Shown here: positions 552-31,148 of the stretch, piece after piece
How positions within the stretch are numbered: position 1 is the first letter of the stretch
Layout: each line of letters begins with the position of its first letter
Assembly: GCA_016934265.1 (NCBI GenBank)
Contig: JAFGTF010000125.1
Coordinates: 1-42,082, forward strand
Source: Spirochaetota bacterium
GTDB lineage: Bacteria > Spirochaetota > B62-G9 > DRHN01
Direction of reading: 5' to 3'
DNA length: 42,082 nt
Made by a program: the position numbers and the translations under genes
Notes under the pieces: model-generated
The model's database searches: none
Told to the model about the DNA's origin: nothing
Seen by the model: the letters and a program-made list of their open reading frames with translations, nothing else

Positions 552-1517
552 CTATCTTTTTCTTATCTGGTTCACTACAACGACTAGGATGATCAAGGAT
601 CCCATAACGAACTCCTGCCAGAATCGAGAAACATTAAGGAGATTGAGGCCGTTGCTGATTACACCCATTATAAAAGCACCGACAATCGTGCCTCCTATGG
701 TGCCGGCACCGCCGTAGAGATTGGTTCCGCCGATAATAACGGCTGCTATCGCCTGTAATTCTTTACCCCCTCCCATGAGAGAGTTTGCGGAAAAGATTCT
801 TCCTACCTGGACAAGGGATGCTATGGAAACACAGAACCCTATCAAGGCGTAAAACTTTACCTTATAGTTCGCAACGTTCATTCCAGCCGCTCTTGCAGCT
901 TCAATGTTTCCGCCGATTGCATATGCACAACGACCGAGCATAGTATAATTGAGAATAAACCACATGAGTATTGACATTATTACCGCGACCAGAACGGAAA
1001 CGGGGATGATTTCGAATACCCGGGCTGATCCGAAGAACACGAGCAGCGGCGGCAGATCGGTAATAGGGAATCCTCTTGTAATAATCAATGCCAGACCCTT
1101 TGCTGCTGAGAGCATCCCCAAGGTCATAATAAAATCCGGAATCCCGGTTCTGCTTATAACAAATCCGTTGAACGCCCCTATCCCCACGCCGACGATTATT
1201 CCTGATAGGATCGCTAAAACGGGATTCAACCCCAATAGGGTGCTCATCTGGGCCATCGTACAGCCGCTCAGGGCTAAAACCGAACCCACGGAAAGATCGA
1301 TGCCCCCGCTGATAATGACGGTGGTCATCCCGAGAGCGATTATCAGGTTAATGGACGTCTGCTGTGCTATGTTTATAATATTGTTTACACTAAAGAAATT
1401 CTTACTGGTCAATGAGAGTACAAAGATCAATATCAATAAGGCCATCAATGGACCGAAGCTTTGAAATTCCCTTATTCTATTGCTAAACGAAGCCTTAGTG
1501 AATCCGTTTTCCTTCAT
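552..1517 (-). CDS. Ribose-type ABC transporter permease (RbsC family)
   Basis: Inner-membrane permease of a CUT2-type (ribose/xylose/galactose family) sugar importer, about 321 residues and of usual length. It shows the family's string of hydrophobic helices and the typical segments GGIDLSVGSVLAL and a late GGTNLYGGAGTIGGT loop. The frame stays open upstream to 1592, but I place the start at the ATG at 1517, which has a GGGAGGAG ribosome site 8-9 bases upstream and leaves only a short overlap with the ATPase gene, whose stop is at 1495. It is the last gene of the sugar-acid operon and should pair with the double ATPase just upstream and the binding protein at 5738-6892. The substrate is not readable from the sequence; a sugar acid or related compound is inferred from the neighbours. 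Confidence 0.9.
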   Translation of the reverse strand: MKENGFTKASFSNRIREFQSFGPLMALLILIFVLSLTSKNFFSVNNIINIAQQTSINLIIALGMTTVIISGGIDLSVGSVLALSGCTMAQMSTLLGLNPVLAILSGIIVGVGIGAFNGFVISRTGIPDFIMTLGMLSAAKGLALIITRGFPITDLPPLLVFFGSARVFEIIPVSVLVAVIMSILMWFILNYTMLGRCAYAIGGNIEAARAAGMNVANYKVKFYALIGFCVSIASLVQVGRIFSANSLMGGGKELQAIAAVIIGGTNLYGGAGTIGGTIVGAFIMGVISNGLNLLNVSRFWQEFVMGSLIILVVVVNQIRKR

Positions 1518-3024
1518 TCTTGACACTCCTCCCTGTAGCGCTCTTGATAATATTTTCTTGAGTAATTTCTTCGCCTTTATACTCAGCTGCAATAGAACCC
1601 TGATACATCACATAGACCCGATCGGATAGGCTGATGATTTCAGGCAGCTCCGACGAAATCAGGATTATCGCCTTTTTCTGCGTTAACAGGTCGTGCATTA
1701 AATTATATACTTCTATCTTTGCGCCGACATCGATACCTCTTGTAGGTTCGTCGAGTAAAAAAACATCAACATTACGATAAATCCATTTCGCCAGTACCAC
1801 CTTCTGCTGGTTTCCGCCGCTCAAATACATAACCTTTTGCGATTCGTTCTGGGCTTCGATCTTCAGTTTGTCTATGAAAGTACGTCCGATAGCCTTTTCC
1901 TTATCCTTATGAAGGATGCCGTTCTCAAATATCTGAGAAAGGTTGGGGAGTGTAATGTTGCAGCTTACACTTAGAGGAAAAATCAGGCTCTCCTTTCGAT
2001 CTTCCGCAAGATACGCGACCCCCGATTCCAGAGCGTCTCGAGGGCTTTGTATATTTACCTCTACATTCTTGACGGTTATTTTCCCGCTGTCTTTTTTATA
2101 CAATCCCACCAAAGTCTTTGCCAGTTCCGTACGCCCCGCACCCATCAATCCTGACAACCCGACAATCTCGCCCTCTTTTGCATAAAAACTGCAGTTTTTA
2201 ACCAATCCTTCAGCGGTTACACCGTCGACCTTGAATATAGTATCGCCTATCCATGCCTCTTTTTTTATGTATCGATTCTTTATTCTTCTTCCCACCATAA
2301 GCTGAATTATTTGATTTTCATCCGTATCGGATATATTCAACGTCTGAATTTTCTCTCCGTCTCTAAACACGGTGACTTTATCGGCAATAGTAAAAGCCTC
2401 CTCCAGACGATGAGTTATATAAATAATCGCCACATCCTTTTTTCGTAATATGTTTATAATACTGTCGAACAATATACGTATTTCTTCTTCCGAGAGTGCA
2501 GAGGTGGGTTCATCCAAAAGAAGCAGTTTTACATCTGTAGAAACCGCCCTGATGATTTCAACCAACTGCTGCTGGCCGACGCCCAGTTGGTTTATTTTCT
2601 TTTTGACATTAATCTTCAACCCATATTTCGTAATCTCGGATTTCGCCTCATCATACATCCGTTTCCAATTCATAACCCGTAACACTTTCTTTTTATGGAA
2701 TGCATGTCCCTGAAAAATATTCTCGGCGACCGATAAATAGGGAACGAGGCTAAGCTCCTGATAAACCATTGCAATACCCAGATGATGTGCTTTCTGTGTA
2801 TTTTCAATTTTTACCCTGGTTCCATCAAAATAGATTTCACCGCCATCAGGCTGTAAATTGCCGCTCAATATTTTTAGAAAGGTGGATTTTCCAGCACCAT
2901 TCTCCCCGATGAGCGCATGGACCTCACCCTTTTTTATTGAAAAATCAATATCTTTGAGTGCGTCGACACCGGGGAAAGATTTCTTTATTCCTTTAACCTC
3001 AAGTATTTTGCTGTTACCAGTCAA
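1495..3024 (-). CDS. Sugar ABC transporter ATPase, double-domain (RbsA/MglA type)
   Basis: Cytoplasmic ATPase that powers the permease encoded downstream. The 509 residues hold two nucleotide-binding domains, as usual for RbsA/MglA. Domain 1 has Walker A GENGAGKST (about residues 40-48), signature LGVGQQQLVEIIRA and Walker B LLLLDEPTSALS. Domain 2 has the degenerate Walker A normal for this family (GLMGAGRTEL), signature LSGGNQQKVVLAKWI and Walker B VFLLDEPTRGIDVG. The start codon is TTG at 3024, preceded by GGGGTG at about 6 bases; no closer ATG fits. The gene is separated from the alcohol dehydrogenase by about 500 bases and overlaps the permease by 23 bases, so ATPase and permease are translationally coupled. 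Confidence 0.93.
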   Translation of the reverse strand: MTGNSKILEVKGIKKSFPGVDALKDIDFSIKKGEVHALIGENGAGKSTFLKILSGNLQPDGGEIYFDGTRVKIENTQKAHHLGIAMVYQELSLVPYLSVAENIFQGHAFHKKKVLRVMNWKRMYDEAKSEITKYGLKINVKKKINQLGVGQQQLVEIIRAVSTDVKLLLLDEPTSALSEEEIRILFDSIINILRKKDVAIIYITHRLEEAFTIADKVTVFRDGEKIQTLNISDTDENQIIQLMVGRRIKNRYIKKEAWIGDTIFKVDGVTAEGLVKNCSFYAKEGEIVGLSGLMGAGRTELAKTLVGLYKKDSGKITVKNVEVNIQSPRDALESGVAYLAEDRKESLIFPLSVSCNITLPNLSQIFENGILHKDKEKAIGRTFIDKLKIEAQNESQKVMYLSGGNQQKVVLAKWIYRNVDVFLLDEPTRGIDVGAKIEVYNLMHDLLTQKKAIILISSELPEIISLSDRVYVMYQGSIAAEYKGEEITQENIIKSATGRSVKNEGKRIH

Positions 3025-18401: not shown

Positions 18402-19547
18402 TTACGCTCTCGATTTTGTGGAAACGTCGGAAAAAACCGCCAGGATGATAATGATCCCCTTTACCACGTACTGTACGAAGGAGGAAATATTCATCAGGCT
18501 CATCCCGTTGTCGAGCGTGGCCATGAAGAGTGCGCCGAAGAGCGCTCCCCATATCGATCCGACGCCGCCGGACATGCTGCAGCCCCCGATAAAAGCGGCG
18601 GCGATCGCATCGAGCTCCATGAAGTACCCCATAACCGGCATGGCGCCGTCAAGCCTCGCCGACAGAAGTATTCCCCCGACCGACGTTAAACCACCCATGA
18701 TGAGAAACACGAAAAAAGTGACCGCCTGAACATTGATACCCGAATACCTGCTCGCCTGCATGTTTCCGCCGACCGCGTAAATGTACCGGCCGAAAGCGGT
18801 ATACCTGGCGACAAACCACATTACGAGCATTAACGCAATCATCAGCAGCACGGGTATCGGTATTCCCTTGTACCCGTATACGACGTAGATCATCACTAGT
18901 ATGAGAAGGGTGAAAAGCGCAAGCTGTATCAAAGGCTTTTTTTTCGTCTCGAGCTTCTCGTTTCCCCTTGCCATACGCTTCCTGTAGATCCAGAACGCAA
19001 GGTATATGACATATATGGCGATAAAAATAATCATGGAAGCGGTCTTTCCGATAAAACCCTGACCTATCATCTTGGTAGAAACATTCAACGGAGCGATGCT
19101 GATGCCTTTCGTGAAGATTAAAGCCAACCCTCTCAGGATCAACATGCTTCCCAGCGTAGCGACGAAGGAGGGGACCCCCCGTACGGTCCAGAATCCGTTG
19201 AATACTCCCATCAAGAGCCCGATACATATGACCACGATTACCGCCTGGGTGGTGGACCACCTATGCCAGGTCTCTAGGATCGCAAGCGTCGCCCCGCTCA
19301 GCGCCACGCCCGATCCGATCGACAGGTCGATATTACCGCTCACTATGACGAAGACCATTCCGGTAGCGAGCACTCCGTTGATCGCGGTCTGTCTCAGAAG
19401 CAGGGTAATGTTTCTCGGAGAGAGGAAGATCCCCTTTGTAAAGACCTCGAACCCGAGCGCACAGACAATGAGAACCATTATTTTCATGAAAAACTGAAGG
19501 TTTATCGAACTTCTACTCTTTATTAATCCAAACCCTTTCGGTGCCAC
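18402..19547 (-). CDS. Xylose-type ABC transporter permease (XylH-like)
   Basis: Inner-membrane permease of 381 residues in the CUT2 family, the larger XylH-like subclass. It shows GNIDLSIGSGVALSG early and a late IGGCSMSGGVGSIWG loop, about ten hydrophobic helices, and a charged cytoplasmic insert with RKRMARGNEKLETKKK near residues 190-205. The start is GTG at 19547, preceded by AGGAGG at 7 bases. It forms one importer with the ATPase and binding protein immediately upstream. A sigma-54 promoter lies in front of the whole operon. The substrate is probably a pentose or similar small sugar, judged from the transketolase and dehydrogenase genes alongside. Confidence 0.92.
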   Translation of the reverse strand: MAPKGFGLIKSRSSINLQFFMKIMVLIVCALGFEVFTKGIFLSPRNITLLLRQTAINGVLATGMVFVIVSGNIDLSIGSGVALSGATLAILETWHRWSTTQAVIVVICIGLLMGVFNGFWTVRGVPSFVATLGSMLILRGLALIFTKGISIAPLNVSTKMIGQGFIGKTASMIIFIAIYVIYLAFWIYRKRMARGNEKLETKKKPLIQLALFTLLILVMIYVVYGYKGIPIPVLLMIALMLVMWFVARYTAFGRYIYAVGGNMQASRYSGINVQAVTFFVFLIMGGLTSVGGILLSARLDGAMPVMGYFMELDAIAAAFIGGCSMSGGVGSIWGALFGALFMATLDNGMSLMNISSFVQYVVKGIIIILAVFSDVSTKSRA

Positions 19548-19633: not shown

Positions 19634-21169
19634 CTACTGCCCCATCGCCATATGCATGATGTGCTCCTGGGAAAACTCGGGCCGTGCAAACTCTCCTCTT
19701 ATCTCCCCTTCCCGCATGACGAGAATTCTATCACACATCCCCAAAAGCTCCGGAAGCTCCGACGAAACCAGGATTATCCCGGCGCCTGCCGCCACAAGGT
19801 CGTTGATTATATGGAAAATCCCCACCTTCGAACCGACATCGATTCCCTTCGTCGGTTCGTCGAGTATGAAAATTTTCGGTTCGGTAAGTATCCATCGTGC
19901 AAGCAGCACCTTCTGCTGGTTGCCGCCGCTCAGATTCTCCACAACGGTATCGAGGCTCGGAACTTTTATCTTCAGCCTGTCGACCATCCTGAAGCCGCCG
20001 GCTTTTTCCGATTCGTGGTTGAGAATGCTGTAGCGCCGATACCGGTGGAGAGAGGAGAGCGAGATGTTGTGAAGCGTGCTCATCGTATGAATAAGCCCGT
20101 ACTCTCTCCTGTTTTCGGTGAGGAGCACGATCCCCTGCTGTATCGCTTCCTTCGGAGATCCGATAAAAGTCCGGGAGCCGTTGATGTAGAACTCACCGCT
20201 CGAGACATCGGGCAGGATCCCGAAAAGACCCATGCAAAGCTCCGTTCGTCCTGAGCCCAGCAAACCGGATATGCCGAGAATTTCACCTCTTTGCAACGTA
20301 AGCGAAATATTCGAAAGCCTCTTTTTGTCTTGTAGATCCTCCTTTTTACGCTGGGAAAGGTTCTTGACTTCAAAGATGACTTCTCCCAGCTCGCAGGAAA
20401 CCTTCGGGTACATCTCTTTTATCTCCCGACCGACTATCATCCGGATGATATCCGATCGCGATATGGCGGAGGTGTTTTGCGTGCCGATCTTTTCTCCGTC
20501 CCGAAGCACCGTGATACGGTCAGATATGAGCTCCACCTCTTCTATCTTGTGAGATATGTAGATACAGGTCCCGCCGGCCCTGCAGAACACCCGTATCAGC
20601 GAAAAAAGCGTATCCGTTTCCGTGTCCGTCAACGAGGATGTAGGCTCGTCGAGAATCAAGATCGAAGGTTCGTCCGATATCGCCTTCGCCACCTGCACGA
20701 GCTGCTGCTCGCCGACGGTCAGCGTTTTGATGATCGCGTGAGAATCTATATCCAGCCCGAGCTTCTCGAGAAACCTGGTCGATTCCGAGTGAAGCGCGCC
20801 CCAGTTCAGTAATCCGAGTCTTGTTTTAGGCATATCTCCCAGATAGATGTTCTCCCCTACCGTCAGATCGGGCACAACGACTATCTCCTGAAAAACGATG
20901 GAAATTCCCGACTCCTTCGCATCCCGTGGGGACTGAAACTTCTTCAGATCGTCCTTGAGGAGGATTTCCCCTTCATACGTTCCGTAGGGATATACTCCGC
21001 ACAGGATTTTCATCAGTGTCGACTTTCCGGCGCCGTTCTCTCCGATGATTGCGTGTATCTCCCCACGCACGAGATCGAAATCCACATTCTTCAGGGCCAC
21101 TACTCCCGGAAAGTTCTTCTTGATACCCCTCATCGTTAGAATGCCGCCAGAACGAATGTCTTCTTTCAT
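19634..21169 (-). CDS. Xylose-type ABC transporter ATPase, double-domain (XylG-like)
   Basis: A 511-residue cytoplasmic ATPase with two nucleotide-binding domains. Domain 1: Walker A GENGAGKSTLM, signature LTVGEQQLVQVAKA, Walker B ILILDEPTSSLT. Domain 2: degenerate Walker A GLLGSGRTEL, signature LSGGNQQKVLLARWI, Walker B IFILDEPTKGIDVG. The AEDR-like linker reads LLTENRREYGL. It powers the permease 86 bases downstream. Domain 1 is the useful comparator for the ABC domain fused to a histidine kinase at 23871-25724. The start at 21169 has only a weak ribosome site; a strong hairpin separates it from the binding-protein gene, so it is likely made at a lower level. Confidence 0.93.
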   Translation of the reverse strand: MKEDIRSGGILTMRGIKKNFPGVVALKNVDFDLVRGEIHAIIGENGAGKSTLMKILCGVYPYGTYEGEILLKDDLKKFQSPRDAKESGISIVFQEIVVVPDLTVGENIYLGDMPKTRLGLLNWGALHSESTRFLEKLGLDIDSHAIIKTLTVGEQQLVQVAKAISDEPSILILDEPTSSLTDTETDTLFSLIRVFCRAGGTCIYISHKIEEVELISDRITVLRDGEKIGTQNTSAISRSDIIRMIVGREIKEMYPKVSCELGEVIFEVKNLSQRKKEDLQDKKRLSNISLTLQRGEILGISGLLGSGRTELCMGLFGILPDVSSGEFYINGSRTFIGSPKEAIQQGIVLLTENRREYGLIHTMSTLHNISLSSLHRYRRYSILNHESEKAGGFRMVDRLKIKVPSLDTVVENLSGGNQQKVLLARWILTEPKIFILDEPTKGIDVGSKVGIFHIINDLVAAGAGIILVSSELPELLGMCDRILVMREGEIRGEFARPEFSQEHIMHMAMGQ

Positions 21170-21285: not shown

Positions 21286-22338
21286 TCAGTTGATCTTCGG
21301 CCACTTGTTCTTCGGAATGTTTGCGTATACCTGCTCGAGAGAAACATACCCCGGCTTTATGAGCGCTTCAACGATGTTGTTCTTGTCAACCGGAATGTTC
21401 TCTACTGAGATGAGAGGAACGTCGACCTTGCCGTTGAAAAGGGTACCTCTGGTTTTTGGTTTTTTACCCGTCGCGATTGCGTATGCAGCCCTTGCCGCGG
21501 CCGCCCCGAGTGGGGGACAGGGCTTGAAAACCGTCATACCGGCCTTGCCCTCGACTATATACTGCAAATTGGCTATATCCCCGTCCTGGCCGGTCGTATA
21601 GCAGTCGGATGCGTCCATACCCTGCTCCTGCAGCGCCCGCACCGCACCCCGGCACGTACCGTCGTTCCAGCAGCACATCGCCTGAATATCGTTGCTGTAT
21701 TTAGTTAGTGAGTTCTCGGCGATCTTCAGAGCATTCTCCGGCGACCACTTGAGCGCGTGCTGGTCGACTACAATCTTGATATCGCCCGAGTCCACATGAG
21801 GCTGGACGACCTTGAAAAACGCCTCCCGCATGAACGCGGTCGCATCGTCCCCGGGATCGCCCTCTATGAGCACCCAGTTCCCCTTCGGGGCCGCTTTGTA
21901 CGAATACTCTGCGATGAGCCTGCCGACGTCATAGAGGTCGTGCCAGACGAAATAGTCGACGTCTGCGTTCAGTATCGGCCGCGTGTATGCAATAAACGGC
22001 ACATCCTCGTTATGCGTTTTTTCCACGAACGCCGCTGCCGCGCTGCTGTTCACCGCACCGAGCACGAGCACGTCTATCCCCTGGGTCAGCATGTTCTCGA
22101 CCTGCGTCGCTTGAAGCCGTTCGTCGTTGTTCGAAGCCTGAAAGAGCACCTCGGCGCCCAAGCTTTCCGCCTCCTTGATGAAACCGTCACGATCGAGCGC
22201 CCATCGCTCCTCCTGCATCGTGGGAAGAATAAAACCGAGCACCACCTTGTCCTCCGATTCCGCGACTGCTACGGATGCACAAATGCCCATAAGCAACAAG
22301 GAAAACAATAGAATCGAAACCGCTCTTTTAATCCTCAT
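21286..22338 (-). CDS. Periplasmic sugar-binding protein (XylF-like)
   Basis: Type 1 periplasmic binding protein of 350 residues. The signal peptide (basic MRIKR, hydrophobic core, likely cleavage after AVA at residue 26) has no lipobox. The mature part has LGFILPTMQEERW, VLVLGAVNSSAAAAFV, and the helix-strand pattern of the family. It is the first gene of the pentose-type importer operon: AAAGGAGAT ribosome site, an approximately 80-base leader, and a sigma-54 promoter at 22431-22446. A 9-codon open frame beginning in GGAGGTGATG sits in the leader. A strong hairpin follows the stop. Confidence 0.92.
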   Translation of the reverse strand: MRIKRAVSILLFSLLLMGICASVAVAESEDKVVLGFILPTMQEERWALDRDGFIKEAESLGAEVLFQASNNDERLQATQVENMLTQGIDVLVLGAVNSSAAAAFVEKTHNEDVPFIAYTRPILNADVDYFVWHDLYDVGRLIAEYSYKAAPKGNWVLIEGDPGDDATAFMREAFFKVVQPHVDSGDIKIVVDQHALKWSPENALKIAENSLTKYSNDIQAMCCWNDGTCRGAVRALQEQGMDASDCYTTGQDGDIANLQYIVEGKAGMTVFKPCPPLGAAAARAAYAIATGKKPKTRGTLFNGKVDVPLISVENIPVDKNNIVEALIKPGYVSLEQVYANIPKNKWPKIN

Positions 22339-22633: not shown

Positions 22634-23665
22634 TCACTCCGGGATCAGCAGGATCTTCATTCCCTCCTTTTTCTCAGCCATTTCGAATGCCCGTTTCCAC
22701 TCGGACAAACCGAATTCGTGGCTTGCGAGGGACTCGCAGTCCACCATTTTCCTTTCCATAAGTGCAAGCGCCCTCTCCCATGCCGGCCGCCTCTGCGACA
22801 CCGTTCCGCGGACCTCGATCTCGAAAAAGGCGATCTTCTCGAAGTCTATCTCGATCGGTCTTCCGAACAGGCCGACCTGGGTATACTTTCCCCGCTTTCG
22901 TACCATGTTGAGGGCCATGACGGCCGCCTGCGGCACGCCCGAACACTCGAACACCACGTCCGCCCCGTACCCCTGTGTCAGCTCCTTCACCCGTGCCACC
23001 GCGTCAGTGGTCTCGATGTTGATCGTATACGGTATACCGAGCTTTTCGGCCGTCTTCAACCGATCCGTATCCCGACCGGTCCCGCATACGAGCACGTTTC
23101 CGCCCTCGGCCCGTGCGACCATTGCGACGAGCAGTCCGATCGGTCCCGGTCCCGTGACAACGACGAAATCGCCCGCCGATACCCCCGTCTGCTCCGTCAC
23201 CCCGTGAACACAGCATGCGAGCGGCTCCGTCATGGCGCCCGCCTTGAAGCTAACGTTCTCGGGAAGCTTGTGTAAATATATGACGTTGCAGTATTTCGTA
23301 AAGCATCCGTTCGCGGTATATCCCAGTATCTTCCTGCTGTTACAGAGGTTGTAATATCCCGACCTGCAGTACCTGCAGGTCCCGCAGAAATAAATGCTCG
23401 ATTCGCCCGTAACTCTGTCTCCTATCGCGATCTCGTCGCCGACTGAAGCCCCCTTCTCCACGACGACGCCGCTGAACTCGTGGCCGACGACGACGGGCGG
23501 TACTATCGGAATATTGATATCGTTGTGATAGATATGGAGGTCCGATCCGCAGATACCAGCGGCCTTCACCTCCACCGTTACCTCGTTTTGGCCCGGAGGT
23601 CTCTTTTCCACGTCCCGAAGCTCCATGAAGCCGTCGCCTAGCTTATACTTGACGATACCCTTCAT
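22634..23665 (-). CDS. Zinc-dependent dehydrogenase (sorbitol/threonine dehydrogenase-like)
   Basis: MDR-family enzyme of about 343 residues. GICGSDLHIYHND and GHEFSGVVVEKG give the catalytic zinc site, CGTCRYCRSGYYNLC the structural zinc, and GPGPIGLLVA the cofactor site. The frame is open upstream to 23842, but the ATG at 23665 has a GGGGAGG site 6-7 bases upstream and starts the family sequence. It is a paralogue type of the enzyme at 16627-17649. It is the last gene after the regulator-kinase pair, separated by about 205 bases, and probably acts on the substrate of one of the two neighbouring importers. Confidence 0.93.
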   Translation of the reverse strand: MKGIVKYKLGDGFMELRDVEKRPPGQNEVTVEVKAAGICGSDLHIYHNDINIPIVPPVVVGHEFSGVVVEKGASVGDEIAIGDRVTGESSIYFCGTCRYCRSGYYNLCNSRKILGYTANGCFTKYCNVIYLHKLPENVSFKAGAMTEPLACCVHGVTEQTGVSAGDFVVVTGPGPIGLLVAMVARAEGGNVLVCGTGRDTDRLKTAEKLGIPYTINIETTDAVARVKELTQGYGADVVFECSGVPQAAVMALNMVRKRGKYTQVGLFGRPIEIDFEKIAFFEIEVRGTVSQRRPAWERALALMERKMVDCESLASHEFGLSEWKRAFEMAEKKEGMKILLIPE

Positions 23666-23870
23666 CACAATCCTCCCCTGCATGCCAGCTGTCGAACCCT
23701 GTGCATACGAAGTATGATTTTCTATCCCTGGCCGTAACACCACGTACCGCGGCCCATACGGATCGAAAAAACTCATGAAACAGCACGGTTTTACGAAACC
23801 GATGCAGAAAATAATGCACCGTATAGACTGATCACCGTTCAATCCGTTTCAAACACCCGTGCCGAATGCG

Positions 23871-25724
23871 TCACTGTACCGCCCGCTTCAAGCTCTTCTC
23901 CGTATCGACATATAGCGGAAATTGCACGGTAAATACCGTCTTTTTCCCCGGATCGCTCGCACACGAGATGACGCCGTCGTGCAAATCCGCAATATGCTGG
24001 CAGATTGCAAGGCCCAGTCCCGTATTCTTCTTGCTCACCTTTGTGCTGTAGAACGGCTCGAAGATATTTCCGGTTATCTCCGTCGGGATTCCGCATCCGT
24101 TATCGATGATACGGAGATATACGGCGCTTCGGTGCCTCTGCTCGTCTATCTCGATCCTTATCAACCCCTCGTTCACCACCGCTTCTATGCTGTTTACCAA
24201 TAGATTAAAGCACAGCTGTTTCAGCCTGTTCTCGTCTCCCCTGATGTAAACATCCTCTTTGCGTATGCCCTTTTGGAGGGTAATTCTTTTTTCCTCGATC
24301 TGATAGTTCAGAAGCGCGAGCACCTCGTTTATAATATGCACGAGATTTACTCTCCTGTCGGCCGCAACATCGAGCTTTGAGAAGGAGAGGAGATTCCCGA
24401 CGATGCCGCAGATTCTGTTCAGCTCACGTTCTATCTTTACCACTTTCCCGATGACGGCGTCGTCAAGGTTCTTTGCTTTAATAATTTCCAGGTAGTTCTG
24501 TATGATACCGAGCGGGTTGTTGATCTCGTGGGCGACACCGGCGGCGAGGTTCTCGACGGAAGTAATCTTTTCGGTACGGAGCAGATACTCCTTGAACTGC
24601 CGCTCCTTTGTAATGTCCTCGATAAGCAGTATGGTCCCGAGAAATACGTAATCATCATCATGAAACGGGTACACGGTTACCCGCAAATACCTGTCGTCCA
24701 AGAACTCGATCTCATCCCACCGCATCTTCTCGCGGTTCTTGATCTTATCGAGGATTTCTTCTCTGATATTCCAGCATCCGGCGAAGAAAAGAGTTTCGAA
24801 CGACTTGTTCATGACCTCGGCCGATTCTATTCCGAGATTCTTGATCGCGGCGAAGTTGATCATGTAGATCTTATGCTCCGCATCGAGCACGACCACCCCT
24901 ATGGGCAGGTTCTTGATTATCGATTCGTTGTACTGCTTGAAATAAAACAGGCTGATATTCGATCGCTCGAGCTCGTTTCTGCTCAGGACGAAGGAGTAGG
25001 TAAGCTTTATGAGCTTTATCTTGTCGAGATCCTTGATCTTCTCCGTTCCCCTCCTGTAGCCGTCCTTGAGGATGGTGACACGGTCAGCAAACCTGAAGAT
25101 CTCCTCCAAATTATGGGTGATGTACACGACGCTTTTATTCCTCTTCTTGGCATCGAGTATGATCTTGTATATCTTTTCCATCTCCACGGGAGTGAGCTTG
25201 TTCGATATCTCATCGAATATGATAAGCTCCGGATCGTAGCAGATCGCCCGTGCGAGCTCGACCATATACTGCTCTCCGCGCGTCAGCCTGCTTAAAGGTT
25301 CGTGTATATCGAAATGAACATCGAGGGCTCTGAAAAGCTCCCGTGTCTTTCGTATCATCGTCCCATAATCTATACTGCCGAGCCAGGTCTTCAACATCCT
25401 CCCCGCAAACACATTATCCACCGCGCTCAGCGACGGTATCACCTGGACGTCCTGATAGATCATCGAAATTCCGTATTTCATCGACAGATCCGGGGTGAAG
25501 TTAAACACCCTTTTACCGTCGAACATAATATCCCCGCTCTTTTTCTGCACGACACCGCTTAAAAGCTTTACGAGCGTCGACTTTCCCGCCCGGTGCTCTC
25601 CCACGAGGGCGTGTATCTCCCCCCTCTGCACATCGAAGTCGACGCCCCTCAACGCCTCTACACCGCTGTAAGATACATGAATATTCTTCATACGAAGCAG
25701 AGTGGCGTTCTTCTTCGTCATCAT
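23871..25724 (-). CDS. ABC-ATPase/PAS/histidine kinase fusion, soluble sensor kinase
   Basis: A 617-residue protein with three parts. Residues 1-235 are an MglA/XylG-type ABC ATPase domain: Walker A GEHRAGKST (42-50), Q-loop Gln 91, signature LTRGEQ (147-152), Walker B LIIFDE (167-172), switch His 204. All core catalytic residues remain, although the loop after Walker B (ISNKLT) departs from the usual PTSALT. Residues about 262-375 are a PAS domain. Residues about 385-450 carry the H-box with His 399 in VAHEINNPLG; 490-605 are the HATPase with NSIEA, DNGCGIP, FEPFYSTK and GLGLAI. There is no transmembrane segment. The ABC domain replaces the usual sensor and lacks the second ABC half of transporter ATPases. 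ATG follows the regulator's stop by one base, so the two are coupled. Inferred role: dock on or monitor a sugar permease and phosphorylate the NtrC-type partner. Confidence 0.9.
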   Translation of the reverse strand: MMTKKNATLLRMKNIHVSYSGVEALRGVDFDVQRGEIHALVGEHRAGKSTLVKLLSGVVQKKSGDIMFDGKRVFNFTPDLSMKYGISMIYQDVQVIPSLSAVDNVFAGRMLKTWLGSIDYGTMIRKTRELFRALDVHFDIHEPLSRLTRGEQYMVELARAICYDPELIIFDEISNKLTPVEMEKIYKIILDAKKRNKSVVYITHNLEEIFRFADRVTILKDGYRRGTEKIKDLDKIKLIKLTYSFVLSRNELERSNISLFYFKQYNESIIKNLPIGVVVLDAEHKIYMINFAAIKNLGIESAEVMNKSFETLFFAGCWNIREEILDKIKNREKMRWDEIEFLDDRYLRVTVYPFHDDDYVFLGTILLIEDITKERQFKEYLLRTEKITSVENLAAGVAHEINNPLGIIQNYLEIIKAKNLDDAVIGKVVKIERELNRICGIVGNLLSFSKLDVAADRRVNLVHIINEVLALLNYQIEEKRITLQKGIRKEDVYIRGDENRLKQLCFNLLVNSIEAVVNEGLIRIEIDEQRHRSAVYLRIIDNGCGIPTEITGNIFEPFYSTKVSKKNTGLGLAICQHIADLHDGVISCASDPGKKTVFTVQFPLYVDTEKSLKRAVQ

Positions 25725-25725
25725 C

Positions 25726-27081
25726 CTACCCTATTCCCAGTTTCTTCATTCTGTTATAAAGGGTCTTTCTGTGTATTTTCAGAAAATCAGCCGCCTTCTG
25801 CCTGTTGCCGTCGTTTCTTTCCAGCGCGTCCAGGATCATCTCCCTGCTAAGGCTCTCGTACAGCTCCCTGAACCCCCGGCACGGACTCCGGGAGCCGACC
25901 CGGTCGCCGACCTGGTCGCCGACCTGGTCGCCGACCTGGTCGTATTGGGATGACAGATCGCCTTTCTCTAGTATGTCACCCTCACAGAAGATAACCGCAC
26001 GCTGGATGCAGTTCTTCAGCTCTCGTACGTTACCGGGCCACTCGTGCGACAAGAATAGGTCCTTCACTTCCTCGGAGATCGCCCGTATATGCTTGCCGTA
26101 CCTGCCGTTGAAATAGGACAGAAAATAATCCGCGAGGAGCATGATGTCCTCCCGTCTCTCGCGCAACGGTAAAAGTTCGATCGTAACGACCGATAGACGG
26201 TAATACAGTTCTTCCCTAAACTTTTCCTCGCGTATGAGTCTTTCCAGCGGCCTGTTTGTCGCGGAGATAACCCTCGTGTCTGTCGTATGGACCTCGTTGC
26301 TTCCCAGCCGTTCGAACTTCTTCTCTTCGATCACGCGAAGCATCTTGGCCTGGGTGCTCGGGCTCATATCTCCTATCTCGTCGAGGAAGATCGTCCCGCC
26401 GTGCGACAACTCGAACTTTCCCTCGCGCGAATACGCCGCATCCGTGAAGGCGCCCTTTTCGTGTCCGAAGAGCTCGCTTTCGAGAAGGCTGTCGGGGATG
26501 GCGGCGCAGTTGACCTTTACAAACGGGCCTGCGCTTCTCGAGCTGTGCTTGTGCAGCATGTTCGCGACATGCTCCTTTCCCGTGCCGCTCTCCCCGGCTA
26601 TGATCACCGGTACGTCGGTCGGCGCCACCTTCTTGATGTTCGTTATCAGCTTCTTCATACGGGGATTATTAGTATGGATGGTCGTCTTGTCCTCCAGCCC
26701 TCCGTTACGCACTTCGCTCTGCGAATCGAACAGCTGTCGTATCTCCTTCAAAAACGGGCGTATCTTGATCGGCTTGGTATAGAAGTTCAGAGCGCCGCAT
26801 CTCATTGCACGAACCGCGTTTTCAAACGATGGGTAGCCGGTGATCATGATGACCGGAATGGGATTGAAGTCACGTTTCACGACCTGCAAAAGATCCAATC
26901 CACCGATATACGGCATTTTGACGTCCATGACGAGCAGGTCGACGACATTTCCCTTGAGAAGGTCTGAAACCCTTCTCGGGTCCGCTGCGCATAACACATC
27001 GTATCCCTCGTCCGAGAGAAGCTCCCCGAGCGACAGACACATCTCCTCTTCGTCGTCGACAATCAGTATGTTACGATTCAT
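25726..27081 (-). CDS. NtrC-family sigma-54-dependent response regulator
   Basis: A 451-residue activator. Receiver domain 1-120 with acidic Asp 9/10, phospho-acceptor Asp 53 (VMDVKMP) and Lys 103 (YTKP). AAA+ domain about 132-365 with Walker A GESGTGKE (163-170), sigma-54 contact loop GAFTDA (210-215, one change from the usual GAFTGA), Walker B IFLDEIGD and arginine-finger region. A Fis-type helix-turn-helix fills the last 40 residues (GNRQKAADFLKIHRKTLYNRM). Residues 381-396 are four DQVG/DRVG repeats from a 12-base tandem repeat, in the linker before the DNA-binding domain. The kinase gene follows directly. A sigma-54 promoter at 22431 is the obvious target. Confidence 0.95.
   Translation of the reverse strand: MNRNILIVDDEEEMCLSLGELLSDEGYDVLCAADPRRVSDLLKGNVVDLLVMDVKMPYIGGLDLLQVVKRDFNPIPVIMITGYPSFENAVRAMRCGALNFYTKPIKIRPFLKEIRQLFDSQSEVRNGGLEDKTTIHTNNPRMKKLITNIKKVAPTDVPVIIAGESGTGKEHVANMLHKHSSRSAGPFVKVNCAAIPDSLLESELFGHEKGAFTDAAYSREGKFELSHGGTIFLDEIGDMSPSTQAKMLRVIEEKKFERLGSNEVHTTDTRVISATNRPLERLIREEKFREELYYRLSVVTIELLPLRERREDIMLLADYFLSYFNGRYGKHIRAISEEVKDLFLSHEWPGNVRELKNCIQRAVIFCEGDILEKGDLSSQYDQVGDQVGDQVGDRVGSRSPCRGFRELYESLSREMILDALERNDGNRQKAADFLKIHRKTLYNRMKKLGIG
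25894..25941. repeat. Four 12-base tandem repeats within the response regulator gene
   Basis: GCCGACCTGGTC occurs three times exactly and once with one change (25894-25905). The repeat is in frame and encodes DQVG units in the linker between the AAA+ and Fis domains. Copy-number change would alter linker length by four residues without a frameshift. Confidence 0.95.
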
Positions 27082-28028: not shown

Positions 28029-28871
28029 TTACCCTTTTACCGACCCCTGCGTCAACCCGGAGATAAATTGCCGCTGCAGGATGAGAAAGAGGATGAACAC
28101 CGGTACCGTGATCAGGGTGGAAAGCGCCATCAGGCCGCCCCAGTTGACGCCGTACTGCCTGATGAAATCGAGGATACCGACGGGGAGCGTCCGCATCTTC
28201 TCCCCGGTAAGCATGGTAAGCGCGAACATGAACTCCTGCCAGGTAACGATAAATATGTATACCGCGGTTGCGCTGATTCCCGGCCGTGCAAGCGGCAGCA
28301 CGACCCGTATGAATGCAGTCAGCCTCGTACAGCCGTCCACCATCGCCGCCTCCTCGAGGTTATACGGGATATTCTTGAAGAACCCTCGCAGCATCCAGAC
28401 CCCTACCGGAACGGTAAAGGCGAGATAGGCGATGATGAGAGACAGGTGCGTGTTTACGATCCGCATCTTGTTGTACAGTATATAGATGGGAATAATGATG
28501 ACGATGAGCGGGAACAGCTGGGTGAATATGATGATCTTAAGCAGAAACTTCCTCCCCCTGAAACGAAGCCTGGAAAAGGCATAGGAGGAAAACAGCGCCA
28601 CAGCGATCACGATGATCGTCGTCCCGATCGTTACGATGAAACTGTTCATGAAGTACCGGATGAATTTCGGCTGCAGCGCCTGTTGAAAGTTCGATAGGGT
28701 CAATACCCTCGGTAAGAACTTCGGAGGAGCGCTGAACAGGTCATCCTCGGCCTTGAATGCAGTTGACACCATGTAGAAAAAGGGGAAGAGGACGAATACC
28801 AAAAGAAGGAGTATCAAGAAGTACCGTACCGCCTTCACGACCGCTTCCCTGCTTCTGTTCTTCATCGCCAT
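28029..28871 (-). CDS. CUT1-type sugar ABC transporter permease (MalG-like)
   Basis: Inner-membrane permease of 280 residues with six predicted helices. The cytoplasmic EAA loop reads EEAAMVDGCTRLTAFIRVVLPLARPG, the coupling motif that touches the ATPase. It pairs with the MalF-like protein encoded 21 bases upstream. No ATPase gene is present in this operon; CUT1 importers often share one MsmK/MalK-type ATPase encoded elsewhere, and none of that type is in the window. Confidence 0.93.
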   Translation of the reverse strand: MAMKNRSREAVVKAVRYFLILLLLVFVLFPFFYMVSTAFKAEDDLFSAPPKFLPRVLTLSNFQQALQPKFIRYFMNSFIVTIGTTIIVIAVALFSSYAFSRLRFRGRKFLLKIIIFTQLFPLIVIIIPIYILYNKMRIVNTHLSLIIAYLAFTVPVGVWMLRGFFKNIPYNLEEAAMVDGCTRLTAFIRVVLPLARPGISATAVYIFIVTWQEFMFALTMLTGEKMRTLPVGILDFIRQYGVNWGGLMALSTLITVPVFILFLILQRQFISGLTQGSVKG

Positions 28872-28891
28872 GAGTCTTTCTCCAACCGCTT

Positions 28892-29782
28892 CTAATCGAG
28901 CATCTCCCTTTTTTCGAGCTCCCGCATATACAGGATGCTGAAGAGCAAGAGAATGATGAACGTGATCATCGCATAGGTCGCCGCGAGCCCGAACCTGAAC
29001 CGGGTAAACGCGAGATTATAGATATATGTCGGAAAGATGTGGGTCGAGTTTCCGGGCCCGCCGTTCGTCATGATATAGATGATCTCGAAATAGTTGAACG
29101 TCCACACGGTGGTTAAAAGCAGCGTAATCCGTATTATGGGCGATATCTCGGGGATAACGACATAGAAGAACTGCCCCCACCTGCCAGCACCGTCGATCTT
29201 CACCGCATCGATGAGCTCGGGGTTCACTCCCTGTAGTGCGGCCATATACATAAGCGCGGAGAACGGAAATCCCTTCCAGATCGCGACGAAAATGACCGCT
29301 AAAAGCGCAGTCTGTTTGCTTGAGAGCCAGGTCAGGTATCTCTCTATGATTCCCAGCTTGAATAGCGTATGGTTTATCAGGCCGAGTTGCGGATCGTAGA
29401 GCAATACCCACAGCATGCCGGTTATCACCCCCGGTACGATCCAGGGAAGTATGACAACCGCCCGGACGACATCCCTTCCGGGAAACTGCTTGTGAAGGAG
29501 AAACGCGGAGCCGAGGCCTAAGAGGAACTGGAAAACAACGACGACGATCGTCCAGATGAACGACTGCAGGAGTATTTCGTAGAAGGTCTTGTCTGAAAGG
29601 ACGGCGATATAGTTACCGAACCCGACGAACTTCGGTTTCGGAAGAACGAGGCTCGACTTATAGAGGCTGTCTATGATCGTCTTAACGAGGGGATAGAAGA
29701 ATAGCGCCGCCACGAGAAGAAATGTGGGGATGATAAAGAAGTATCCCAGCCTGTTTTCCTGCTTGAAGCTTGTCGATTCCAT
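28892..29782 (-). CDS. CUT1-type sugar ABC transporter permease (MalF-like)
   Basis: Inner-membrane permease of 296 residues, six helices, no large periplasmic insert. EAA loop GVNPELIDAVKIDGAGRWGQ followed by FFYVVIPEISP. It forms a heterodimer with the MalG-like protein. It follows the binding-protein gene after an 85-base gap containing a hairpin. The N-terminus (MESTSFKQENRLGYFFI) is short and typical. Confidence 0.93.
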   Translation of the reverse strand: MESTSFKQENRLGYFFIIPTFLLVAALFFYPLVKTIIDSLYKSSLVLPKPKFVGFGNYIAVLSDKTFYEILLQSFIWTIVVVVFQFLLGLGSAFLLHKQFPGRDVVRAVVILPWIVPGVITGMLWVLLYDPQLGLINHTLFKLGIIERYLTWLSSKQTALLAVIFVAIWKGFPFSALMYMAALQGVNPELIDAVKIDGAGRWGQFFYVVIPEISPIIRITLLLTTVWTFNYFEIIYIMTNGGPGNSTHIFPTYIYNLAFTRFRFGLAATYAMITFIILLLFSILYMRELEKREMLD

Positions 29783-29817
29783 CCGTTCCGTCTACCGCCC
29801 GATGATGAAAAACAATA

Positions 29818-29843
29818 CTGTGGCACGGCGAACCGCGCCACAG
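29818..29843 (-). repeat. Hairpin between MalE-like and MalF-like genes
   Basis: CTGTGGC pairs with GCCACAG and, inside them, CGG with CCG around a CGAA tetraloop, with a single A/C mismatch. It starts 24 bases after the binding-protein stop. It matches the position of the hairpins after the other binding-protein genes. Confidence 0.75.
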
Positions 29844-29867
29844 CATAAAATGGGTTGCCGTTTCAAA

Positions 29868-31148
29868 TCACTTTCCTGCAAGCAGGTCGTTCACCTCTTT
29901 GTTCGCGTCGATGCAGGCCTGCCGTACGTTCTTGCCCAAGAGAATCTCCTGCACCATCTGCCGCTGTATCTCTGAGATCTGCGGATACACGGGCACCTTC
30001 GGCCTGGGATATCCCTGGCGGAAGTGGTCGAATATGACGCTCGGACCCACCTTGAATTCGTCGAGGAACTTCGGCGCCGCATCGACATGGGCCGGCGTGA
30101 GGGCCGCCATCTTGTAGTTGTTATCCTTGCTCGAGGCGAATTCGATGAACTTCCACGCCGCATCGTGATACGGACTGTTCTTGAAGATCACGTAGCTCCA
30201 TCCGCCGAGGCAGGGGTGGAACGTTTTTCCTGCGGGCGCCGGCATCGTCGCCACACCCCAGTCCATGTTGGGGGCCCGGTTTCTAATGGTGTCCTGCTCC
30301 CACTCGCCGATCCCCTCCATCGCCACCTTGCCGGTGGTGAAGTAGTTCGAAGACCCCACCTGGTCCCCGCTCGCGACGCCCGGAGGCGCTATGTCGACGA
30401 GCTTCTTGTAGAACTCCATCGCCTCGATCACCTCGGGTGAGTCGAGCATCCCCTTCGTGCCGTCCTTATTCACGATCCAGCCGCCGTTGGACTGGAGAAG
30501 CGAGTCGATGAAGCAGATCGTGCCCTCGTCCTTCGCGCCGAGTAGATAGTACCCCCACTGGTCCACCTCGCCGTTGCCGTCGGTGTCTTTCGTGAGCTTT
30601 TTGCCTACCGTAAGCCACTCATCCCATGTCTTCGGTACCGAGACGCCCGCTTTCTTGAACAGGGCCTTGTTGTAGTACAGCACTTCCCACTGGCCGACGT
30701 CCATCGGGATTCCCCACACCTTTCCCTGATACGATACCGAGTCCCAAGCGCCGGGGAAGAAGTGCTCCTTCTTGACCGGTGAGAGCTTGAGGTAGTCGTC
30801 CACCGCAATGATGAAATTCGCGGCTGCGAACTCGGAGTGCCAGATATGATCGACCACGCATATATCCGGCGGGTTTCCGCCCTTTGCGGCGACCAGCACC
30901 TTGTCCCTGTACGCGGCATACGGAGTGACTTCGAGCTCGACCTTGATGTTCGGATTGAGTCGCTCGAACTCCGCGATGACTGAATTCTGGTTCTCGATTA
31001 CCCTCTTGTCCGACTGCTGCATGGTCCAGAACTGCAGCACGATCTCTCCCTTTTCACCTTCACCCCCCGCAAAGACAAGCGGCAGTGAGCCGATAAAAAA
31101 GAGAGATACGAGCACAGCGACAATCAGATACTTGCTCTTGCCCTTCAT
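29868..31148 (-). CDS. CUT1-type sugar-binding protein (MalE-like, family 1)
   Basis: Extracellular solute-binding protein of 426 residues (cluster B/D fold). A signal peptide ends at VFA near residue 27 and the mature protein begins GGEGEKGE, a style common in spirochaete binding proteins and without a lipobox cysteine. Typical segments: FERLNPNIKVELE, GNPPDICVVDH, VWGIPMDVGQWEVLYYNKALF, and later GGWSYVIFKNSPY. ATG at 31148 with AAAGGAGG ribosome site. First gene of the MalEFG-type operon, behind a sigma-70 promoter and a leader of about 240 bases. Substrate probably an oligo- or disaccharide, not determinable here. Confidence 0.94.
   Translation of the reverse strand: MKGKSKYLIVAVLVSLFFIGSLPLVFAGGEGEKGEIVLQFWTMQQSDKRVIENQNSVIAEFERLNPNIKVELEVTPYAAYRDKVLVAAKGGNPPDICVVDHIWHSEFAAANFIIAVDDYLKLSPVKKEHFFPGAWDSVSYQGKVWGIPMDVGQWEVLYYNKALFKKAGVSVPKTWDEWLTVGKKLTKDTDGNGEVDQWGYYLLGAKDEGTICFIDSLLQSNGGWIVNKDGTKGMLDSPEVIEAMEFYKKLVDIAPPGVASGDQVGSSNYFTTGKVAMEGIGEWEQDTIRNRAPNMDWGVATMPAPAGKTFHPCLGGWSYVIFKNSPYHDAAWKFIEFASSKDNNYKMAALTPAHVDAAPKFLDEFKVGPSVIFDHFRQGYPRPKVPVYPQISEIQRQMVQEILLGKNVRQACIDANKEVNDLLAGK

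Follow-up and report, generated by a model that had tools for sequence, protein, structure and literature searches.

Our analyses showed that a Spirochaetota contig of 42,082 nucleotides, the whole of which is called the window below, encodes a soluble histidine kinase (P0001) that begins with an ABC ATPase domain similar to that of CUT2 sugar importers, and that its layout, ABC-PAS-HisKA-HATPase_c, is a conserved family of its own. The explanation that we favor, to which we assign a probability of about 55%, is that the ABC domains of the kinase dock as a pair on a permease, which would then serve as a receptor for turning on the operon of the importer. The features of the window are listed in Table 1.

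Table 1. Features of the fusion kinase and of its neighborhood in the window
Feature	Position	Strand	Basis
P0002, NtrC/AtoC-type sigma-54 response regulator, one base upstream of the kinase gene	25726..27081	minus	Pfam, NCBIfam
P0001, ABC-PAS-HisKA-HATPase_c fusion kinase, 617 aa	23871..25724	minus	ORF, Pfam
P0001, single ABC ATPase domain, residues 8-232	25029..25703	minus	Pfam, alignment, motifs, model
P0001, linker, residues 233-262	24939..25028	minus	Model confidence <50 at 244-265
P0001, PAS domain region, residues 263-375	24600..24938	minus	Pfam
P0001, HisKA dimerization and phospho-acceptor region, residues 376-452, His399	24369..24599	minus	Pfam, motif
P0001, HATPase_c kinase core region, residues 453-604	23913..24368	minus	Pfam
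ORF of 402 aa that separates the kinase gene from the importer genes; resembles, by eye, a zinc-dependent alcohol/polyol dehydrogenase	22634..23842	minus	ORF
Sigma-54 promoter-like site TGGCAC-N5-TTGCT, about 90 bp upstream of the gene for P0004	22431..22446	minus	Consensus match
P0004, XylF-like sugar binding protein	21286..22338	minus	Pfam, NCBIfam
P0003, two-domain CUT2 ATPase, the importer's own ATPase	19634..21169	minus	Pfam, NCBIfam
P0005, CUT2 permease	18402..19547	minus	Pfam, NCBIfam

The reading frame of P0001 has no internal stops. Its Pfam matches, each above the curated cut-off, were ABC_tran (residues 25–173), PAS (267–371, with PAS_9 at 275–373), HisKA (391–452), and HATPase_c (496–604); domains of other types, SLC5 and STAC included, were absent from the Pfam results. 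No membrane helix was found with 19-residue Kyte-Doolittle windows (maximum 1.33, threshold 1.6). The original prediction of an ABC ATPase, a PAS domain, and a histidine kinase in one soluble protein was therefore right, also in its coordinates, and had left unsaid only that the gene is on the minus strand.

Residues 5–241 shared 35% identity (83/240) with the first half of P0003, and P0001 has the Walker A, Q-loop, and Walker B with Glu that belong to the first half of CUT2 ATPases (GEHRAGKS with His44, Gln91, and Asp171-Glu172), together with the switch His204 and, in the kinase part, the H-box His399. It had also been proposed that the signature was kept along with these motifs. P0001 reads LTRGE there, versus LSGGQ, and the proposal is true only loosely, because the first halves of MglA-type ATPases are degenerate at that position as well. 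The second ABC half with LSGGNQQ is missing. With one half only and no LSxG, P0001 was rejected as an ordinary importer ATPase.

In NCBIfam, the best matches of the ABC part were RbsA and AraG, over residues 5–241 and at about a quarter of the cut-offs; the RbsA equivalog cut-off was missed with 193 versus 745 bits. The kinase part was nearest to AtoS, with 241 bits over residues 259–606, below the cut-off of 646. The structure model (one model, 25 sequences) had a mean pLDDT of 78, with block means of 83–94 across most of the ABC part, low confidence around the linker (Table 1), and a pTM of 0.43, so that it does not fix the arrangement of the domains. A Foldseek search with this model returned kinases and ABC ATPases.

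The regulator P0002 contains receiver, sigma-54 activator, and Fis-type HTH domains in Pfam, and the NCBIfam AtoC model gave it 418 bits, short of the cut-off of 714. A short in-frame repeat, GDQVGDQVGDQVGDRVG, was seen between its ATPase and DNA-binding parts (window positions 25899–25944). Downstream of the kinase gene, on the same strand, the order is the 402-aa ORF, P0004, P0003, and P0005. The sigma-54 consensus, scanned through the window with at most one mismatch, matched only at the site of Table 1, where the match is exact. Since 0.68 matches were expected by chance, this site alone is not strong; its strength lies in its position and exactness. Solved structures searched with the permease (E up to 0.001) gave no match, and those searched with the ATPase (E up to 1e-30) gave P-glycoprotein only. 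The search for a second kinase fusion within the window had no match. Other transport genes were seen in the window: a second pair of CUT2 permease and ATPase at its low end (552–3024) and, directly upstream of the regulator gene, a CUT1-like importer (28029–31148; two permeases and a binding protein, by eye).

The genome of the window encodes two further copies of the fusion, with 34% and 31% identity to P0001. A survey of the phylum revealed 25 full-length copies in 16 of 392 genomes, these three included; in a survey of the class, 59 of 394 genomes had matches, some of them partial, and the two surveys have genomes in common. When GTDB contigs were scanned for the pattern GEH[GR][AC]GKS[ST], 66 loci were obtained, of which 58 had a PAS-type fusion ORF, one (L119) had a GAF-type fusion, and seven had none (one of them cut by the contig end). 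After copies more than 95% identical were dropped, the non-redundant set held 108 copies; it pools three routes, one of which selects for GEH. Motifs were counted in 105 of these copies, those with ORFs longer than 560 aa. Pfam found ABC_tran, HisKA, and HATPase_c in all of 25 members tested and PAS_9 in 17 of them. The domain order, for which a profile search had been recommended with the original prediction, is that of a conserved family.

The hosts of the 108 copies are mostly Spirochaetota. Other host labels in the GTDB scan were UASB270 (six copies), candidate division KSB3, Poribacteria, Opitutae, Gynuella, Bacteroidia, and plain “bacterium.” We take UASB270 to be Vecturithrix, which belongs to Moduliflexota, and KSB3 is presumably Moduliflexota. 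A plasmid search matched 54 records, none with 80% query coverage, and the best 10 of the 54 were ordinary ABC ATPases.

A stop or frameshift between the ABC and PAS parts, restriction to a single genome, and a decaying ABC domain had been named beforehand as findings that would speak against the fusion. We found no internal stop, and full-length relatives with the same domain order occur in other genomes, which rules out a chance fusion or an assembly joint. Decay of the ABC domain was ruled out by its pN/pS of 0.145, against 0.137 in the kinase part and 0.225 in PAS (65 close pairs pooled, some of them duplicate copies). The ABC part is under purifying selection of much the same strength as the kinase part. 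PAS was also the least conserved folded part, with a mean pairwise identity of 25% versus 34% for ABC.

Each of the 25 copies that were identified from sequence alone has an NtrC-type regulator gene next to it, and 24 have a CUT2 ATPase and permease nearby (the permease at L054 is a weak match), where uniform placing would give 2.4. In the 108-copy set, an ORF like P0002 was adjacent in 101 copies by sequence match, a CUT2-like importer ATPase lay within 8 kb in 91 (one of which, at L059, 7.8 kb away and with GPNGAGKT, looks Liv-type and not CUT2), and a permease lay within 8 kb in 92. The ATPase was divergent and upstream in 68 loci and downstream on the same strand in 18. Of the 17 loci without an ATPase, 14 are on contigs that end less than 8 kb upstream, the usual side of the importer. 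The other three (L053, L230, and L233) have more than 8 kb on both sides and no CUT2 importer there. Five of the seven copies without an adjacent regulator are at contig edges; at L181, the regulator ORF is 234 bases from a shortened kinase ORF, and at L179, there is no regulator within 8.3 kb upstream. The company of a CUT2 importer and a sigma-54 regulator, whose constancy had been put forward as a check, is thus usual and not invariable. As a control, non-fusion kinases were within 8 kb of a CUT2 ATPase in 2 of 48 cases in four single-contig genomes and in 5 of 39 in the genome of the window, 7 of 87 together, among the matches listed and with an ATPase list complete at E 1e-60.

Several observations were made on individual neighborhoods. 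By eye, L053 has a LacI-type regulator and genes for a sugar kinase, an epimerase, and an isomerase as neighbors. The fusions at L230 (8518–10332) and L233 (8460–10283) have a GEN Walker A, and their neighbors look like dehydrogenases, a glycyl-radical enzyme, and an activase; a change of partner is possible at these two loci. The binding proteins at L054, L105, L114, and L225 resemble, by eye, nucleoside-type BMP lipoproteins, and given these neighbors, the family may serve more than sugars. Single-domain ATPases with LSGGQRQ, not of the usual two-domain kind, were seen in CUT2-type loci near fusions at L055 (6542–7423), L057 (1990–2784), L069 (13630–14403), L248 (4245–5036), and L249 (13329–14120). 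In two genomes, the non-fusion kinase that is, among the matches listed, most like the kinase part of P0001 (G348:C1:2283544 and G360:C44:4836) is also within 3 kb of a CUT2 ATPase.

Of 90 loci, 60 have a sigma-54 site in the 3 kb upstream of the importer ATPase, compared with one of 90 in the antisense direction. In the 400 bases before the regulator gene, the count was 1 of 98 in sense and 57 of 98 in antisense, the latter being the direction of the importer when it is divergent. For the first 66 loci, 40 sites were observed, against a mean of 1.55 after shuffling. From gene placement and this promoter evidence, we consider it highly probable that regulator, promoter, and importer form one chain of control.

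The ABC domain retains the residues of the nucleotide site. In the 105 full-length copies, the Walker A Gly and Lys were conserved in 105, Ser/Thr in 104, Gln91 in 103, and the Walker B Asp in 104. The catalytic residues, which the original prediction had seen kept in P0001, do not hold as a family rule: Glu172 was found in 95 copies, the switch His in 72, and both in 70. An LSxG signature was found in none of the 105. The kinase motifs were nearly invariant (His399, Asn511, and Asp541 in 105; Gly571 in 104).

Where the Walker A of the partner ATPases has Asn, 92 of 105 fusions have His (exactly GEH in 75), as do 24 of the 25 copies not chosen by motif (exactly GEH in 20); no GEH Walker A was found among 60 readable motifs of partner ATPases from the 66 loci. 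The comparison with partners used 83 of 91 pairs, after exclusion of those with an ATPase no longer than 450 aa or with a short fusion. The first halves of these 83 ATPases had Lys, Asn, Gln, Asp, and Glu in 82 each and the switch His in 83, and their first-half signature is degenerate too. LSGGNQQ was present in all 83, and the second-half Walker A had Arg in 66 and Lys in 6 (11 were not read). By this pattern of residues, the fusion resembles the first half of a CUT2 ATPase, whose working partner half it lacks. Judged from the residues, ATP binding is conserved and transport-type hydrolysis is not: the ABC domain of the fusion should bind ATP, and some members of the family look able to do without hydrolysis.

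A second type of fusion was found at L119, in a Nitriliruptorales MAG, where an ABC-GAF-HisKA-HATPase_c kinase is followed by an OmpR-type regulator, a Peripla_BP_4 binding protein, and a CUT2-type permease. This type was present in 4 of 66 genomes of the class of L119; the draw of its phylum (396 genomes) returned three of those four and one partial, kinase-only match. All four loci had matches for the regulator, the binding protein, and the permease. L248 and L249 also encode a 263-aa single-domain ATPase. L247 and L250 are 14.5–15.4 kb each, and comparison with P0003 at E 1e-5 gave no ATPase there besides the fusion; the two genomes do encode CUT2 ATPases at other loci. A quick tree (80 rows), with about half of the representative pairs and four GAF-type rows of unusual composition, placed the PAS-type ABC domains in one group (SH-aLRT 99) and the GAF-type ABC domains outside it, beyond the partner and single-domain ATPases. 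From this position, an ABC ATPase and a kinase were probably joined twice beside a CUT2-type permease.

The signals of partner specificity were weak or mixed. In the helical subdomain, the likeness of the kinase ABC domain to its own partner, compared with other ATPases, gave a z of about 3.0 with 45 representatives and about 2.1 with 63; in one variant with 63 representatives, the C-terminal core came out on top (z 2.6) and not the docking region. Likeness to the partner was 0.141 ± 0.068 (n = 22) versus 0.037 ± 0.032 (n = 76) for non-partner ATPases of the same genome, which is within error. Over 83 pairs, distances between ABC domains related to those of the ATPase at 0.09, of the permease at 0.15, and of the regulator at 0.75. 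When kinase-core distances were removed, the partial correlation of kinase-ABC with permease distances was 0.14 (p = 0.024, uncorrected, one of eight tests) and that with ATPase distances was 0.064 (p = 0.20, not significant); the kinase core itself related to the permease at −0.05 (p = 0.77). Since the distances of the cassettes do not follow those of the importers, cassettes appear to switch from one importer to another. Such a switch would be allowed, though not predicted, by a generic docking groove.

The mechanism that we propose begins with the input domain, which would derive from the first half of the ATPase of a CUT2 sugar importer, domesticated as a part of a soluble two-component sensor. 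Histidine kinases act as dimers, so there would be two ABC domains per kinase dimer, the number that an importer needs. This pair would take the position of the true ATPase on the coupling helices of the neighboring CUT2 permease. A change in the permease caused by the sugar-loaded binding protein would move the ATP-bound ABC pair, and the linker and PAS would relay the movement to the kinase, which would then phosphorylate the adjacent NtrC-type regulator. If the sign of the signal is as we suppose, the regulator would activate the importer operon from its sigma-54 promoter. Fresh true ATPase would displace the kinase and so provide feedback.

Other uses of the ABC domain can be imagined. The cytosolic ABC domains might bind ATP or pair with the true ATPase, and report the energy charge or the amount of free ATPase without contact with the permease. 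That the nucleotide-binding residues are the best-kept part of the ABC domain would agree with this, as would the lack of congruence between importer and cassette distances and the loci L230 and L233, without a CUT2 importer in view. An energy sensor would need no CUT2 neighbor, yet 24 of 25 copies have one, and titration of the ATPase is difficult to reconcile with the two GAF-type loci where no true ATPase was found; we think this account unlikely. The loss of LSxG in all 105 copies and of the switch His in 33, and the match of PAS models to many members (PAS_9 in 17 of 25), could instead be read to mean that the ABC domain, left from a gene fusion, serves as a scaffold or clamps the dimer, with PAS or another partner sensing an intracellular sugar or catabolite. 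We find this quite improbable, given that PAS is less conserved than ABC and has the higher pN/pS, that the Walker A Lys was never lost, and that an ABC-kinase fusion seemingly arose again with GAF, again beside a CUT2-type permease.

It is very doubtful that the fusion still works as the ATPase subunit of the importer, powering the permease and signaling as a by-product. No PAS-type copy has LSxG, so a homodimer would lack a complete trans site, and 86 of the 91 PAS-type loci with a nearby importer ATPase have one longer than 450 aa; the two GAF-type loci without another CUT2-like ATPase and the 70 of 105 PAS-type copies that keep both Glu and His are what can be said in its favor. For docking on the permease, we counted the neighborhood, the sigma-54 sites, the retention of the ATP site, the GAF-type fusion, and the kinase-ABC/permease distance signal. 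Against it, we counted the weak partner likeness that falls with sample size, the unrelated distances of cassettes and importers, the loci L053, L230, and L233, and the CUT2 ATPases elsewhere in the genomes of the two ATPase-less GAF loci. We infer that a signal taken by the ABC domain from the permease best accounts for the repeated company of CUT2 permeases and for the loci without another ATPase. The original idea that the ABC domain is the sensor input, possibly by docking on a permease in place of the normal ATPase or by reading its nucleotide state, is partly supported, by the layout and by the gene neighborhood. More tentatively, and at somewhat below even odds, we suggest that the kinase dimer fills both ATPase seats and makes the importer a non-transporting receptor for its sugar. 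Such an arrangement would have evolved at least twice, as PAS/NtrC-type in spirochaetes and relatives and as GAF/OmpR-type in the class of the Nitriliruptorales MAG, with two loci where the kinase is the only local CUT2-like ATPase.

Among open-licence PMC papers, searched by title and start of the abstract, no description of an ABC ATPase fused to a histidine kinase was found in the matches listed, in agreement with the original view that no such family had been described. The ABC part of P0001 matches the first half of RbsA, MglA, and XylG and differs from them in that the second half is replaced by a kinase, that the Walker A has His for Asn, and that there is no LSGGQ half. The kinase core and the regulator are of the same type as AtoS/AtoC, but their scores are far below the curated cut-offs and the input of P0001 is an ABC ATPase. 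XylFII-LytS controls the CUT2 xylFGH genes with a membrane LytS-type kinase that is not known to have an ABC ATPase domain, whereas P0001 is a soluble HisKA kinase. Its binding protein directly contacts the sensor domain of the kinase (PMC6321045), and the likeness is a xylose-type sugar binding protein that feeds a two-component system.

The nearest ideas to the fusion are the CbrA/CrbS, Bce, and Pst-PhoR systems. BceS and PhoR are membrane proteins not known to carry an ABC domain, and Bce-type kinases are defined by two membrane helices and no cytosolic sensor domain, a definition that does not cover P0001, which has no hydrophobic window above 1.6. In BceAB-BceS and PstSCAB-PhoU-PhoR, the kinase signal comes from an ABC transporter through contact between separate proteins (PMC6978683). 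A kinase signal from an ABC transporter is common to these systems and, as proposed here, to the fusion, which differs in being one polypeptide. CbrA and CrbS join an SLC5 symporter, STAC, and a histidine kinase, and were called a unique sensor type for the union of transporter and kinase, with signaling reported to be independent of transport via the SLC5 domain (PMC5715377). They share with P0001 a transporter part and a histidine kinase on one polypeptide; there, a membrane symporter is fused, whereas in P0001 it is a soluble ABC importer ATPase and the membrane part is a separate gene. The 13-helix SLC5 and STAC are absent from P0001.

In the known ABC-coupled kinases, motor and kinase are separate proteins linked by contact, and this link is hard to follow; the fusion has the motor domain and the kinase on a single soluble polypeptide. 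If docking is true, the state of nucleotide and permease could be read in vitro as kinase activity, how an ABC importer informs a kinase would become directly testable, and the regulator pairs beside sugar importers in Spirochaetota would gain a signal input.
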